Origin: Streptomyces lushanensis | GTDB lineage: Bacteria > Actinomycetota > Actinomycetes > Streptomycetales > Streptomycetaceae | Reading direction: 5' to 3' | NCBI RefSeq assembly: GCF_001700515.1 | Contig: NZ_MAUD01000009.1 | Span: forward strand, 1-64,000 | Length of the DNA stretch: 64,000 nt | In this document: positions 15,491-21,216 of the stretch, one piece after another | Layout: each line of letters starts with the position of its first letter | Numbering within the stretch: the first letter of the stretch is position 1 | The notes under the pieces: model-generated | Seen by the model: only the letters and a program-made list of their open reading frames with translations | What the model was told of the DNA's origin: nothing | Databases searched by the model: none | Position numbers and translations under genes: made by a program

Positions 15491-16675
15491 TCAGCCGCCC
15501 GAGGTGTCCAGCTCGGCCTCCGCGCCGACGCCCGCGCAGTCGTACGGGTCCTTCAGCCAGCCGTCCGGCAGGACGACCCGGTTGTTGCCGGACGTACGGC
15601 CGCGCGGCCCGTCCGCGCCGTCGGGCCACGGCTGGTCGAGATCGAGCCCCGACAGCAGCGTGTCCAGCTCGGCGAGGGACGAGGTGACGGCCAGTTCCCT
15701 GCGGAGCTGCGAGCCGACCGAGAAGCCCTTCAGATACCAGGCCACATGCTTACGGAAGTCGATCACGCCGCGCGCCTCGTCCCCGAGCCACTCCCCCAGC
15801 AGCTCGGCGTGGCGCCGCATGACGGCGGCGACCTCGCGCAGCGCCGGGCGCGCCAGAGCGGCCTCGCGGTCTCCGGTCCCGGCCTCCGCGGCCTCGAGGG
15901 CCGCGACCAGATCGGCGAAGAGCCAGGGGCGGCCCAGGCAGCCGCGTCCCACGACGATTCCGTCACAGCCGGTCTCGCGCATCATCCGCAGCGCGTCCCG
16001 CGCCGACCAGATGTCGCCGTTGCCGAGCACCGGGATCTCCGGGACGTGCTCCTTGAGCCGTGCGACAGCGTCCCAGTCCGCCGTACCGCCGTAGTGCTGC
16101 GCGGCCGTCCTGCCGTGCAGCGCGATCGCCGTGACGCCCTCCTCGACCGCGATCCGCCCCGCGTCGAGATAGGTGAGGTGATCGTCGTCGATGCCCTTGC
16201 GCATCTTCATCGTCACGGGCAGCTCCGCGGCGTTGGACACCGCCTCGTGCAGGATCGCGCGCAGCAGCGGGCGCTTGTACGGCAGCGCCGAACCTCCGCC
16301 CTTCCGTGTGACCTTGGGCACCGGGCAGCCGAAGTTGAGATCGATGTGGTCGGCCAGATCCTCGTCCACGATCATCCGGACCGCTTTGCCGACGGTCACC
16401 GGATCCACCCCGTAGAGCTGGATCGAACGCGGGGTCTCGGCCGCGTCGAAGCGGATGAGCTGCATGGTCTTCTCGTTGCGCTCGACCAGCGCCCGGGTGG
16501 TGATCATCTCGCTCACGAACAGCCCTTTGCCTCCGCTGAATTCACGGCACAGCGTCCGGAACGGCGCGTTCGTGATCCCGGCCATGGGCGCGAGCACCAC
16601 CGGCGGGGACACGGTGTGCGGCCCGATGGCGAGCGGAGAGGTGGCGGTGGCGGTCGCGGCGAGTGAAGCGGTCAT
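15491..16675 (-). CDS. dusB: tRNA-dihydrouridine synthase, DusB-type
   Basis: 394 aa. FMN enzyme reducing uridines to dihydrouridine in tRNA. Features: PPVVLAPMAGITNAPFRTLCRE at the N-terminus, the active-site loop LNFGCPVPKVTRKGGGSAL with the catalytic Cys, KMRKGID, ALHGRTAAQHYGG and GNGDIWS for flavin and tRNA contacts. C-terminal helical domain follows from about 270. The ATG at 16675 is preferred over the ATG at 16693 because it follows a GGCGGG and gives the typical N-terminus. Divergent from the MFS gene. Confidence 0.95.
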   Translation of the reverse strand: MTASLAATATATSPLAIGPHTVSPPVVLAPMAGITNAPFRTLCREFSGGKGLFVSEMITTRALVERNEKTMQLIRFDAAETPRSIQLYGVDPVTVGKAVRMIVDEDLADHIDLNFGCPVPKVTRKGGGSALPYKRPLLRAILHEAVSNAAELPVTMKMRKGIDDDHLTYLDAGRIAVEEGVTAIALHGRTAAQHYGGTADWDAVARLKEHVPEIPVLGNGDIWSARDALRMMRETGCDGIVVGRGCLGRPWLFADLVAALEAAEAGTGDREAALARPALREVAAVMRRHAELLGEWLGDEARGVIDFRKHVAWYLKGFSVGSQLRRELAVTSSLAELDTLLSGLDLDQPWPDGADGPRGRTSGNNRVVLPDGWLKDPYDCAGVGAEAELDTSGG

Positions 16676-16719
16676 CCCGCCATTGTCCCGCATGACTCGC
16701 GCAGGACCGAGTCATTAGT

Positions 16720-16731
16720 TAGTCGTACTAT
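16720..16731 (+). promoter_or_regulatory. -10 region and inverted repeat of a leaderless promoter
   Basis: TACTAT (16726-16731) resembles a -10 hexamer and places the transcription start at or next to the ATG at 16738. It overlaps the inverted repeat TAGT-CGT-ACTA (16720-16730). No purine-rich ribosome site precedes the ATG, supporting a leaderless mRNA. Confidence 0.45.
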
Positions 16732-16737
16732 CGACGT

Positions 16738-18201
16738 ATGCCCGAGCTGAGCCACCGGCGGCGCCTCCTTGTCCTCGCCATCTGCTGCATGAGCCTGCTG
16801 ATCGTCAGCCTGGACAACACCGTCCTCAATGTCGCCCTGCCCTCCGTGCAGCGTGAGCTGCACGCCTCCGTCTCCGGGCTCCAGTGGACGATCGACGCGT
16901 ACACGCTCGTTCTCGCCTCGCTCCTGATGCTCTCGGGCTCCACCGCCGACCGGATAGGCCGCCGCCGGGTCTTCAAGACCGGGCTGGTCCTCTTCACACT
17001 CGGCTCGCTGCTCTGCTCCCTCGCGCCCAACCTCGAATCGCTCGTCGCGTTCCGCATGGTGCAGGCCGTCGGCGGCTCGATGCTCAACCCGGTCGCGATG
17101 TCGATCATCACCAACACCTTCACCGAACCACGCGAGCGCGCCCGCGCCATCGGTGCCTGGGGCGCCGTCGTCGGTGTCTCCATGGCGGCGGGGCCGCTGG
17201 TCGGCGGGCTGCTGGTGGAGTCGGTCGGCTGGCGGTCGATCTTCTGGATCAACCTCCCGATCGGGCTCACCGCGCTCCTGCTCACCTGGCGCTACGTGCC
17301 GGAGTCCCGTGCCCCGAAGCCGCGCCGACCCGATCCCGTGGGCCAGCTCCTGGTCATCGGCGTACTCGGCGCGCTGACCTACGCGATCATCGAGGCGCCC
17401 GTGGCGGGGCTGACCTCACCGCGCATCCTGTCGTTCGCCGCCGTCTCGGCCCTCTCCCTGGTCGGTCTCGTGCTGTACGAGCCGAGGCGTGCGGAGCCGC
17501 TGATCGATCTGCGGTTCTTCCGCAGCGCGCCCTTCAGCGGGGCGACCGTGATCGCCGTCTGCTCGTTCGCCGCGCTCAGCGGGTTCCTCTTCCTCAACAC
17601 GCTCTATCTCCAGAACGTACGCGGACTGTCCGCGCTGCACGCCGGGCTCTACATGCTGCCGATGGCGACCCTGACCTTCCTCTGCGCGCCGCTGTCGGGC
17701 CGGCTCGTCGGCAGCCGGGGCCCGCGCCTCTCGCTGCTGGTCGCCGGTACCGCCATGACGGCGAGCGGCCTGCTGTTCGGCACGAGCGACGCGGAGGCGA
17801 CGAACGCGCTGCTGTTCACCGGCTATGTCCTGTTCGGCCTGGGCTTCGGCATGGTGAACGCGCCGATCACCAATACCGCCGTCTCCGGCATGCCGCGCTC
17901 CCAGGCGGGCGTCGCCGCCGCCGTCGCCTCCACCAGCCGTCAGATCGGCGGGACGCTCGGTGTCGCGGTGATCGGCGCGGTGCTGGCGGGCGGAGTGGTC
18001 GGCGCAGCCTCCTCCGCCGCCTACACGGCGAGCTTCACGGACGCGAGCCGGCCGGCCTGGTGGATCATCACCGCCTGCGGTCTGTGCGTCCTGGTCGTCG
18101 GCGCGCTGACCAGCGGCGCATGGGCCCGCGGAACCGCGCGGCACACGGCGGAAAGGCTGGAGCCGGCCGGCGCTCAGACCAGCGCGGGCACCAGATCGTA
18201 G
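16738..18201 (+). CDS. MFS drug exporter, DHA2 (EmrB/QacA) type
   Basis: 487 aa with about 14 membrane segments. Motif A-like loop GSTADRIGRRRVFKTG (about 64-79) and motif C GVSMAAGPLVGGLL (about 146-159) identify a proton-coupled drug/H+ antiporter. The second residue block LDNTVLNVALPSVQREL carries the conserved membrane Asp. There is no ribosome site before the ATG (see promoter entry). The 3' end overlaps the convergent XRE regulator gene by 28 bp. The exported compound is unknown. Confidence 0.9.
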   Translation: MPELSHRRRLLVLAICCMSLLIVSLDNTVLNVALPSVQRELHASVSGLQWTIDAYTLVLASLLMLSGSTADRIGRRRVFKTGLVLFTLGSLLCSLAPNLESLVAFRMVQAVGGSMLNPVAMSIITNTFTEPRERARAIGAWGAVVGVSMAAGPLVGGLLVESVGWRSIFWINLPIGLTALLLTWRYVPESRAPKPRRPDPVGQLLVIGVLGALTYAIIEAPVAGLTSPRILSFAAVSALSLVGLVLYEPRRAEPLIDLRFFRSAPFSGATVIAVCSFAALSGFLFLNTLYLQNVRGLSALHAGLYMLPMATLTFLCAPLSGRLVGSRGPRLSLLVAGTAMTASGLLFGTSDAEATNALLFTGYVLFGLGFGMVNAPITNTAVSGMPRSQAGVAAAVASTSRQIGGTLGVAVIGAVLAGGVVGAASSAAYTASFTDASRPAWWIITACGLCVLVVGALTSGAWARGTARHTAERLEPAGAQTSAGTRS

Positions 18202-19028
18202 AGGCGGTCGAGCCGGGCCCTGGACTCGTCGTCCACCGGGACATAGCTGACCAGCCGGGGCCCCGAGGACGGTCCGAGCCAGAGGTTGGTGTGCTCCAGA
18301 TTGAGCTGTCCCACCCGGGCGTTGACGAACCGCTTGGTCTTGTCGCCGACGGCGACCACTTCGTGCTGCTCCCAGATCTCCCGGAACTCCGAGGAGGCGG
18401 ACCGCAGCCGGCCGAGCAGCGTCTTCCACGCGGGCTCCGCGAGATGCTCGGCCATGGCCGCCCGGAACTTGGCCGCCATCACCCGGATCGTCTCGTCGCG
18501 ATTGCCGAGCGCGGAGCGCCAATCCTCGTTGGTGAAGGCCAGCCACATGCAATTGCGGTCCTCGGGCGCCAGCGCGTCCAGATCGCACATGAGGTGCCCG
18601 TAGGTGCGGTTGTACGCGAGGATGTCGTACCGCCCGTTCTGCACACAGGCCGGGTAGGGCTCAAGACGCTCCAGCATCCGCCGCAGCGCGGGCGTGACGG
18701 TCGGGCAGGGCGTCCCGGGAGCGGGATCGACGGCGCCCGCGAGCGCGAAGAGATGCGCGCGCTCGCTGCGGTCGAGCAGCAGCCCGCGGGCGAGCGCTTC
18801 GAGCACCTGCGCGGAGACCTGGATGGGGCGGGCCTGCTCCAGCCAGGTGTACCAGGTGACACCGACGGCGGAGAGCTGGGCGACCTCCTCCCGCCGCAGT
18901 CCGGGCGTACGGCGCCGGCTCCCGCGGGCGAGACCGACCTGCTCGGGCATGATGCGCTCACGGCGGCTGCGCAGAAAGGCGGCCAGCTCATGGCGGCGGA
19001 TGTCCGTTTCCTGTACAGCCGTGGTCAT
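18174..19028 (-). CDS. XRE-family regulator with MmyB-like ligand domain
   Basis: 284 aa. Helix-turn-helix at about 10-75 with SRRRTPGLRREEVAQLSAVGVTWYTWLEQ split here across the recognition helix, followed by an MmyB-like domain (about 105-275; NRTYGHLMCDLD, WLAFTNEDWR, LWLGPSSGPRLVSYVP) that in this family binds a fatty-acid-like ligand. The ATG at 19028 is the natural start of the domain. Tandem TACCAGG motifs sit 43-80 bp upstream of it and recur upstream of the MFS gene at 19696, so that exporter is its most likely target; autoregulation is also likely. Confidence 0.88.
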   Translation of the reverse strand: MTTAVQETDIRRHELAAFLRSRRERIMPEQVGLARGSRRRTPGLRREEVAQLSAVGVTWYTWLEQARPIQVSAQVLEALARGLLLDRSERAHLFALAGAVDPAPGTPCPTVTPALRRMLERLEPYPACVQNGRYDILAYNRTYGHLMCDLDALAPEDRNCMWLAFTNEDWRSALGNRDETIRVMAAKFRAAMAEHLAEPAWKTLLGRLRSASSEFREIWEQHEVVAVGDKTKRFVNARVGQLNLEHTNLWLGPSSGPRLVSYVPVDDESRARLDRLYDLVPALV

Positions 19029-19070
19029 CCTCCCAGCGTGCCGTATGTCCCGGACCGTTGCCAGGTGGTG

Positions 19071-19107
19071 TGGGTACCAGGATGAGCCCCGTGGATACCA
19101 GGCTGAG
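19071..19107. promoter_or_regulatory. Tandem TACCAGG operator pair upstream of the XRE gene
   Basis: TGGGTACCAGGATGAG (19071-19086) and TGGATACCAGGCTGAG (19092-19107), 13 of 16 bases identical, repeat period 21 bp, i.e. the same face of the helix. A second pair with the same core lies at 19652-19689. Confidence 0.7.
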
Positions 19108-19158
19108 CGGATGGACCGGGCCGGACGGACCCGAGCGGACGGCCCGGGCACATGACGA

Positions 19159-19185
19159 GCGGTGCGCGCGTAAGGCGCGCACCGC
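19159..19185 (-). terminator. Probable terminator of the DUF1918 gene
   Basis: Perfect 11-bp stem (19159-19169 with 19175-19185) around a 5-nt loop, downstream of the small DUF1918 gene and upstream of the XRE promoter. Confidence 0.45.
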
Positions 19186-19309
19186 GTGTGCTCCTTGTCC
19201 CACCGTTGTCCCACCTCTCCGGTCCCACCGCCCGGCCTTCGCCGGCGCTTCACGGGCGCCGGCACCTCACGGACGCCTCAGTGACGTCGCTTCACCCGCG
19301 TACGTCGTC

Positions 19310-19504
19310 TCACCTGTGCTTTCCGCGCGACTCCACCGCCGAGTCGGGCCCCGGCGAGACGATCGACTCATGGCCGTCCTCACCGCGTACCTTGAAGGGC
19401 GGTGTCCCGTTCGGCCCCAGTACCTCCACGATCTCCACGACGCGGTCGTGCTTGCCGACCACCCTGCCGTGCATCACCAGGCGGTCACCCTTGCTTGCTT
19501 TCAT
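19310..19504 (-). CDS. DUF1918 small basic protein
   Basis: 64 aa. It starts MKASKGDRLVMHGRVVG and contains the conserved H-R-VEIVEV-G-PPF-VR pattern of DUF1918, a short SH3-like beta-barrel family common in actinomycetes and of unknown function. GGGAG lies 6 nt before the ATG. It stands alone between the XRE and MFS genes on the minus strand. No functional link to its neighbours can be read from sequence. Confidence 0.85.
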   Translation of the reverse strand: MKASKGDRLVMHGRVVGKHDRVVEIVEVLGPNGTPPFKVRGEDGHESIVSPGPDSAVESRGKHR

Positions 19505-19651
19505 GCCGCACTCCCAAGCCGCTCATCGATGCCCGACCATGTCACCGGCCGTGATCACCAGTGTACGGAATGTCCTGTTCTGTGTCGCCCTGAGCATCTC
19601 GGCGGGACTTCCGGGCATCTCGGCGGGCCTTCCGGTCCGTGCCGGGTAGTT

Positions 19652-19689
19652 CATGTACCAGGATAAAGACACTCTGGTACCAGGGTGAG
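19652..19689. promoter_or_regulatory. Tandem TACCAGG operator pair upstream of the second MFS gene
   Basis: CATGTACCAGGATAAA (19652-19667) and CTGGTACCAGGGTGAG (19674-19689), period 22 bp. The TACCAGG cores match the pair at 19071-19107. The second copy ends 6 nt before the GTG start and its AGGGTGAG would serve as the ribosome site, so binding could block both transcription and translation. Confidence 0.7.
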
Positions 19690-19695
19690 TAGCGC

Positions 19696-21216
19696 GTGAT
19701 CGTGGTAACCGTGAGTACAGCTTCCGCGAAAAACACCCCGGACGCGGCGACAGCCCCGGCGGCTGCCCCGGCCGCCGGCGTGGCCGCTCCGGCCGGGGCC
19801 TCCGGCGGATCCCCCGTCGTCGTCCATGACCATGGTTCGGTGCTCGGCACGCTCGGTCTCTTCACCGTGCTGGTCGGCGCGTCCCTTCCACTGATCGACT
19901 TCTTCATCGTCAATGTCGCCCTGCCGACCATCGACCACGATCTGGCCGCCGGTCCCGCCCTCCTCGAACTGGTGGTGGCCGGATACGGGCTCTCGTACGC
20001 CGTGCTGCTCGTGCTCGGTGGCCGGCTCGGCGACATGTTCGGCCGGCGCAGACTCTTCCTGGCCGGCATGGCGGCCTTCGGCCTCACCTCGCTCGTCTGC
20101 GGCATCGCGCCCAACGCCTGGACCCTGGTCGGCGCCCGGGTCGCCCAGGGCGCCTCCGCCGCGCTGATGCTGCCCCAGGTCCTGGCCACGATCCATGCCG
20201 CCACCGGCGGACAGCGCCGCGCGAAGGCGGTCAGTCTGTACGGCGCCACCGCCGGCCTCTCGATGGTGGCGGGCCAGATCCTCGGCGGCGTACTGGTCTC
20301 CGCGAACATCGCGGGCAGCGGCTGGCGCGCGATCTTCCTGGTCAATGTGCCGGTCGCGCTGCTCGGCCTGGTCCTGGCGTTCCGTTCGGTGCCGGAGACC
20401 CGTTCCCAGCGGCCCGCGCCCATCGACACACCCGGAACGATTCTGCTGGCCGTCTCGCTGGTGACGCTGCTGGCGCCGCTCACGGAGGGCCGGGCGGCCG
20501 GCTGGCCGGTCTGGACATGGATCTCGCTCGCCGCGTTCCCGGCCGCCGCGTACGCCTTCGTCCGCGTGGAGCGGCGGGCCGACCGTCAGGGCAGAACGCC
20601 GCTCGTACCGCCGAGCCTGCTCGCGCTGGTCACGCTCCGCCGCGGACTGACCCTGCTGCTGCCGTTCTCGATCGGCTTCGGCGGCTTCATGTTCGTGATC
20701 GCGATCGCGCTCCAGCAGGGCCTCGGCATGGGAGCGGTGACGGCGGGCATCGCGCTGGTTCCGATGGCGGTGACGTTCTTCGCCGCCTCGCTGGCCGGAC
20801 CTCGGCTGGTACGGCGCTACGGCAGCCTGGTGGTGACGACGGGCGCGGTCTTCCAGATGATCGGCGTCGCCCTGCTGGTGCTCGCCCTCTGGAACCGCTG
20901 GCCCTCGGTCGGCGTGCCGGAGCTGCTGCCCGGCGTCGCGCTGGCCGGTCTCGGCCAGGGCCTCCAACTGCCGGTCATCATCCGGATCGTGCTCTCCGAC
21001 ATCCCGTCGGAGCGGGCCGGGGTGGGCAGCGGAGTCATGGTCACCGGCCAGCAGTCCGCACTGGCGCTCGGGGTGGCGACGCTGGGCTCGCTCTTCCTCT
21101 CGCTGACCGCCGCGACGGGGATGCGGGACGCCCTGGTGATCACCCTGCTGGCGCAGCTCGGACTGATCGTCCTGACGGGACTGCTGAGTCTGCGGCTGCC
21201 GCGTTCGGTGGGCTGA
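19696..21216 (+). CDS. MFS exporter, DHA2 type
   Basis: 506 aa with about 14 membrane segments. After a 50-residue Ala/Pro-rich cytoplasmic start it has DFFIVNVALPTIDHD (TM1), motif A GGRLGDMFGRRRLFLAG and motif C GLSMVAGQILGG. It is a paralogue of the exporter at 16738 but clearly divergent in sequence. GTG 19696 follows AGGGTGAG; GTG 19711 is an alternative with a worse ribosome site. The shared operator motif points to control by the XRE/MmyB regulator. A strong hairpin ends the transcript. Confidence 0.9.
   Translation: MIVVTVSTASAKNTPDAATAPAAAPAAGVAAPAGASGGSPVVVHDHGSVLGTLGLFTVLVGASLPLIDFFIVNVALPTIDHDLAAGPALLELVVAGYGLSYAVLLVLGGRLGDMFGRRRLFLAGMAAFGLTSLVCGIAPNAWTLVGARVAQGASAALMLPQVLATIHAATGGQRRAKAVSLYGATAGLSMVAGQILGGVLVSANIAGSGWRAIFLVNVPVALLGLVLAFRSVPETRSQRPAPIDTPGTILLAVSLVTLLAPLTEGRAAGWPVWTWISLAAFPAAAYAFVRVERRADRQGRTPLVPPSLLALVTLRRGLTLLLPFSIGFGGFMFVIAIALQQGLGMGAVTAGIALVPMAVTFFAASLAGPRLVRRYGSLVVTTGAVFQMIGVALLVLALWNRWPSVGVPELLPGVALAGLGQGLQLPVIIRIVLSDIPSERAGVGSGVMVTGQQSALALGVATLGSLFLSLTAATGMRDALVITLLAQLGLIVLTGLLSLRLPRSVG

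Follow-up and report, generated by a model that had tools for sequence, protein, structure and literature searches.

The paired TACCAGG motif found beside an XRE regulator gene and an MFS exporter gene of Streptomyces lushanensis is likely to mark an operator/promoter module shared by the two genes, through which the regulator would repress both until a ligand releases it. This reading draws on the conservation of the motif with the gene pair, its confinement to the locus, a promoter-like geometry with locked start codons and complementary losses in its two copies. The locus lies within a stretch of 64,000 nucleotides of contig NZ_MAUD01000009.1 (hereafter the window). The regulator, an MLTR (MmyB-like) XRE protein, is encoded on the minus strand (18174-19028, ATG at 19028), and a DUF1918 gene occupies positions 19310-19504 of the same strand (PF08940, 2.1e-23), between the two copies of the module. 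The DHA2-like MFS exporter is encoded on the plus strand, probably at 19711-21216 (MFS_1, 1.9e-43, for the frame from 19696). On the other side of the regulator, positions 15491-18201 hold a dihydrouridine synthase gene and a second MFS gene, which runs convergently to the regulator gene and overlaps the end of the latter; both genes recur there in many relatives.

TACCAGG was located on the plus strand at 19075, 19096, 19656 and 19678, with periods of 21 and 22 bp. The four copies in two pairs reported in a preliminary description were thus recovered within the stretches it had named, and they are real, beyond chance. The heptamer by itself is unspecific, occurring 13 times in the window against 2.4 expected, nine of these outside the four sites. 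Another copy, at 18850-18856, falls within Trp-Tyr codons of the regulator helix-turn-helix (HTH) and is probably due to coding constraint. The genome-wide search proposed earlier gave a divided answer. The composite pattern CTGGT-N16/17-CTGGTA-N9-CCYGG had two matches in the 7.54-Mb genome, both at the locus, and none in a reversed-pattern control, while the 22-bp direct repeat CTGGTA-N16-CTGGTA with at most one mismatch was not enriched (9 sites against 19 in the reversed control). The view of the copies as simple tandem operators was abandoned on this ground. Each unit instead consists of an outer CTGG box at a -35 position and a central box, and on the regulator side a third element had been overlooked, CCTGGCAA (minus strand, 19058-19065). 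The elements are designated A, the palindrome CTGGTACCAG; B, the central CTGGTA; and C, the element within CCTGGCAA.

In relatives the module typically occurs as a single copy common to both divergent genes, CTGGTACCAG-N7-TTATC-CTGGTA-N9-CCTGGCAA. An MFS relative divergent from the regulator match, within 500 bp, was present in 79 of 80 homologous loci. The core TACCAG-N12-CTGGTA with at most one mismatch was found in 63 of the 80 windows upstream of the regulator (exactly in 45), as against 1 of the 1782 other windows taken from these loci. One-mismatch cores extend to a Kibdelosporangium, a Serratia and a Xanthomonas genome. The remaining 17 loci, with 2-5 mismatches, count against our preferred explanation; in Amycolatopsis loci CTGGTACCAG is present, yet 2-3 mismatches occur at the core spacing. 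A profile of 95 loci reads CTGGTACCAG-AGTGTCCTTATC-CTGGTA-CAAGCACTA-CCTGGCAAC. These 95 were selected from 109 by a core with at most two mismatches, so that the conservation of TACCAG and of CTGGTA, element B included, is partly built in; the selecting string excluded the start codons, the -10 boxes and element C. The other 14 loci were left out of the geometry counts, and the core seems to be misplaced, through a wrong anchor, in L064, L068 and L076. A pattern search across the genus gave matches in 140 of 392 genomes; some of the matches listed are an unrelated recurring 41-mer.

The preliminary description had named a motif common at unrelated promoters as grounds for rejection. Such a reading, or one of chance repeats, could appeal to the 13 heptamers in the window and to the unenriched one-mismatch direct repeat, but it has next to no probability in view of the locus-only composite pattern, the enrichment of the core upstream of the regulator (63/80 against 1/1782) and the locking of the start codons described below. 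The motif therefore stands, as first proposed, as a conserved cis-element of the regulator/exporter pair present at both promoters.

The outer CTGG boxes appear to be placed like the -35 boxes of adjacent leaderless-type promoters. On the exporter strand the 95 loci follow CTGGTA-N18-SANNST-N7-start, with A and T each in 94% of loci at hexamer positions 2 and 6; in the window the -35-like box is formed by 19674-19679 of the perfect palindrome A (19674-19683, plus strand) and the -10-like box is GATCGT at 19698-19703. The regulator strand follows CTGG(C/A)A-N18-CANNCT-N6-ATG, CTGGCA being typical (A 84%, T 83%); here element C supplies CTGGCA at 19059-19064 (minus strand), exactly 18 nt before the -10-like box CACGCT (19035-19040, minus strand), whose CANNCT form is conserved 6 nt before the ATG. 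Homology-confirmed in-frame starts fall within offset 36-38 on the exporter side in 93 of 95 loci (82 at 37) and on the regulator side in 78 of 95 (67 at 36), and 74 of the 95 show the strict geometry on both sides. Since in-frame starts sit at this locked offset, both mRNAs look leaderless, and on both sides the -10 box stands 6-7 nt before the start codon, as expected of leaderless actinobacterial promoters. The regulator start at 19028 and the distances given for it were upheld. The exporter start had been placed wrongly; it is probably GTG 19711 (conserved offset 37) rather than 19696, because the starts of relatives hold the fixed offset and the codon at 19696 is GCG in a sister genome. 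The supposed overlap of the second exporter copy with a ribosome site is likewise unsupported, the exporter gene appearing leaderless. A simple sigma-70 scan passed no promoter at the locus and the -10 boxes are poor, which counts against our explanation. A different exporter promoter, TTGCCA-N17-GATAAG on the strand opposite C, was dropped, as start codons are locked to A instead; in addition, just two of the eight exporter-side copies retain TTATC. Among MLTR paralogues, L160, L161 and L162 begin with CTGG-N4..5-ATG, with a -10-like box ahead of it, which would fit a general use of leaderless promoters in this family.

The exact 18-nt spacing on both sides would also suit promoters of a special sigma factor, with boxes that the regulator does not bind at all. 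We regard this as very improbable: the regulon of such a factor would be wider, the ATG-terminated pattern of the regulator promoter was matched once in the genome, at the locus (and once in the reversed-pattern control), and the composite pattern is confined to the locus. Moreover, element B belongs to neither promoter, yet it is retained in every copy at the loci with two operators.

In the window and in sister genome G028, whose regulator is 96% identical, the module is present in two copies around the DUF1918 gene. G016 also carries two copies, with a different insert between them, G412 has two separated by about 3.3 kb of other genes, and in G020, G135, L006 and L007 they form close tandems. 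The exporter -35 half, CCAG of A, was kept in 8/8 exporter-side and 0/8 regulator-side copies of these eight loci, CCTGG at C in 0/8 and 8/8 respectively, and B in 8/8 of both. TTATC fails to distinguish the copies (2/8 vs 0/8), which counts against our explanation. In the window the regulator-side copy has B at 19075-19080, kept across loci, and a degenerate A, CTGGTATCCA (19092-19101), with the left half retained and the right half, the exporter -35, lost. By the comparison of two-operator loci the exporter-side copy has a degenerate C, CCGGCA (19640-19645), and, by this comparison and the 95-locus profile, an intact B (CTGGTA, 19656-19661); all four lie on the minus strand. G000, G028, G016, G020 and G135 were found as double matches, among the matches listed, with a pattern demanding CTGGT at the left of A, CTGGTA at B and CCYGG at C, which builds in the retention of B and of the left half of A for those five. 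G412 was included for its exporter-side likeness to G016 and its CCCGG, and L006 and L007 were spotted in the homologous loci and the tree. As the eight rows are related and partly selected by pattern, no significance is claimed for the complementary loss.

The tree joins the window and G028 in one supported pair and places G016, G020, G135 and G412 in another supported clade of nine rows that also holds single-operator loci. As the window and G028 thus stand apart from the clade that contains the remaining labelled cases, duplication appears to have arisen at least twice. The tree's count of three changes scored L006 and L007, which belong to the nine-row clade, as not tandem, and left out G249. 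CCTGG at C was kept in 0/5 two-operator and 81/90 single-operator loci; beyond those five, no second copy was seen by eye in the loci lacking strict regulator geometry. CCCGG at C is associated with two-operator loci and was rejected as a diagnostic of split loci, being present in the single-operator L145-L150, L155 and L011 (L145-L150 and L155 having been fetched because of their CCCGG). G249 (L179) has its regulator and exporter about 15 kb apart; A, B and a C of the CCCGG form adjoin the exporter, and beside the regulator a sequence resembling B (CGGGTA), C and the spacing of -10 box and ATG were recognised by eye.

Overall, the pair of units would seem to derive by duplication from one ancestral operator, with later divergence of the halves. 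It might be argued that the copy beside the regulator is decaying, a leftover of the duplication, and that the exporter-side copy alone is functional, given the broken A palindrome of the former and its spacing of 21 instead of 22. This is unlikely, as the sister genome keeps the left half of A, B and C on that side together with the -10 box and ATG spacing, and the other two-operator loci likewise keep the left half of A, B and C. The DUF1918 gene between the copies is probably a passenger: it recurs there in G028, whereas no DUF1918 match was obtained at E 1e-4 in the 80 homologous loci. It is the only one found in its genome (E 0.001), and 29 of 31 genomes searched, including this one, have at least one match. 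As described before, the gene has no motif copy of its own, yet it adjoins the exporter-side copy in the DUF1918/exporter intergenic region.

The regulator has an XRE-type N-terminal HTH domain (HTH_31, 9.7e-9, over the cut-off) and an MLTR ligand-binding domain matched over its full length, 1-168 (PF17765, 8.5e-48). No PDB relative was retrieved by sequence at E 0.01, while the AlphaFold model (mean pLDDT 85.5, pTM 0.62) returned 3PXP as its best Foldseek match (E 4.6e-11, probability 1.00), with a TM-score of about 0.48 and an rmsd of 11.3 over the whole chain. In 79 of 80 relatives the regulator gene is divergent from its putative target; in the window the DUF1918 gene intervenes. The HTH stretch RRTPGLRREEVA...TWYTWLEQ is invariant or almost invariant across the 19 regulators aligned, whose identity goes as low as 48%. 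It is equally invariant in rows where the core string fails, L071 and L077 among them, so that the HTH and the motif are not closely coupled, a point against our explanation. The exporter is classed only as MFS, DHA2-like, its best NCBIfam match, the EmrB-type DHA2 family TIGR00711, remaining below the cut-off (152.4 vs 230.2 bits).

The genome of the window contains 17 MLTR matches. Exact half-sites occur upstream of three, the window's own included (the upstream estimate being unreliable for L174 and L175), and an operator common to the whole MLTR family is thus unsupported. One of the three, the C289 paralogue (L157/L170), is a 45% identical MLTR regulator divergent from an MFS gene; its operator conserves B and C, with the right half of A altered to TAACGAG. 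Cross-talk or insulation between the two switches is possible.

We propose that the ancestral state was a single module of about 40 bp between the genes, in which two leaderless promoters would point away from each other. Their -35-like boxes, CTGGTA on the exporter side and CTGGCA on the regulator side, would themselves be copies of the operator half-site, accompanied by the central CTGGTA. MLTR dimers on the module would mask both promoters, and the regulator would thereby repress the exporter and its own gene, until a ligand in the PAS-like domain frees it and allows pump synthesis. The simplest reading is occlusion, because a protein bound at A and C would lie over both -35 positions, with B between them. 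The cooperativity of this binding, as first proposed, is likewise an inference. In S. lushanensis the module would then have been duplicated, and the copies, now flanking the DUF1918 gene, would each retain the common sites and the -35 box of their own gene and lose that of the other. The recognition helices of MltR span about 10 bp (according to the accessible text of PMC3406030), which would exceed the spacing of the halves of the 10-bp palindrome; this counts against our explanation, the seating of a dimer on A being less straightforward.

The same boxes could conversely be read as sites of an activator, the regulator binding CTGG boxes that replace a good -35 and recruiting RNA polymerase to one or both weak promoters. 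In both promoters the -35 and -10 boxes are indeed poor and the -35 position carries operator-like sequence; self-activation by such a regulator is known from CI of phage lambda. MmyB, the namesake of the MLTR family, is described as a positive regulator, an activator of the methylenomycin genes, in the accessible text of PMC10717218. Activation nevertheless seems rather unlikely here, since the XRE regulator MsrR represses its divergent MFS gene (PMC7532634, accessible part); that A reaches beyond the -35 into the spacer is a further, weak argument. A bolder proposal has, in our estimate, somewhat less than an even chance: the half-site of the regulator would itself be the -35 box of both leaderless divergent promoters, in a mirror-symmetric switch whose duplication repeatedly admits foreign genes, each copy being pared to the promoter it serves. 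At either promoter a single protein would then recognise the very sequence used by the polymerase, and, if so, these loci would be a natural dissection of half-site against promoter served.

The module provides a precise and cheap binding test, and from it the start codons of both genes can be predicted across many species. The operator duplications form a natural series for relating lost boxes to promoter function. No operator sequence of an MLTR regulator linked to an exporter was found in the literature matches listed, in which subscription papers are thinly covered, although such genes are numerous, with the 17 MLTR matches in this genome. Nor is the operator named in the accessible text of PMC3406030, PMC7532634, PMC12565409, PMC10717218 and PMC5625687.

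Among known systems, lambda OR resembles the module in layout, with several related sites set between a pair of divergent promoters that include the regulator's own; unlike in OR, the boxes are spaced by 22 and 16 bp and coincide with -35 positions. In domain architecture the regulator resembles MltR Caur_2278 (PDB 3PXP), with an XRE domain and a PAS-like ligand domain. According to the accessible text of PMC3406030, MLTR genes are often divergent from their likely target and are linked to antibiotic-related and SDR/MDR genes, the partner here being an MFS exporter, and MmyB uses pseudo-palindromic B-boxes. A close counterpart in gene layout, and a precedent for the proposed control, is the MsrR/MFS divergon of Corynebacterium glutamicum, in which the XRE regulator MsrR, of 240 aa, binds the intergenic region and represses itself and the divergent MFS gene (PMC7532634, accessible part). 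MsrR senses through Cys62; the first cysteine of the window regulator is residue 108 in its own numbering, and because none precedes it a switch of the MsrR type is unlikely here.
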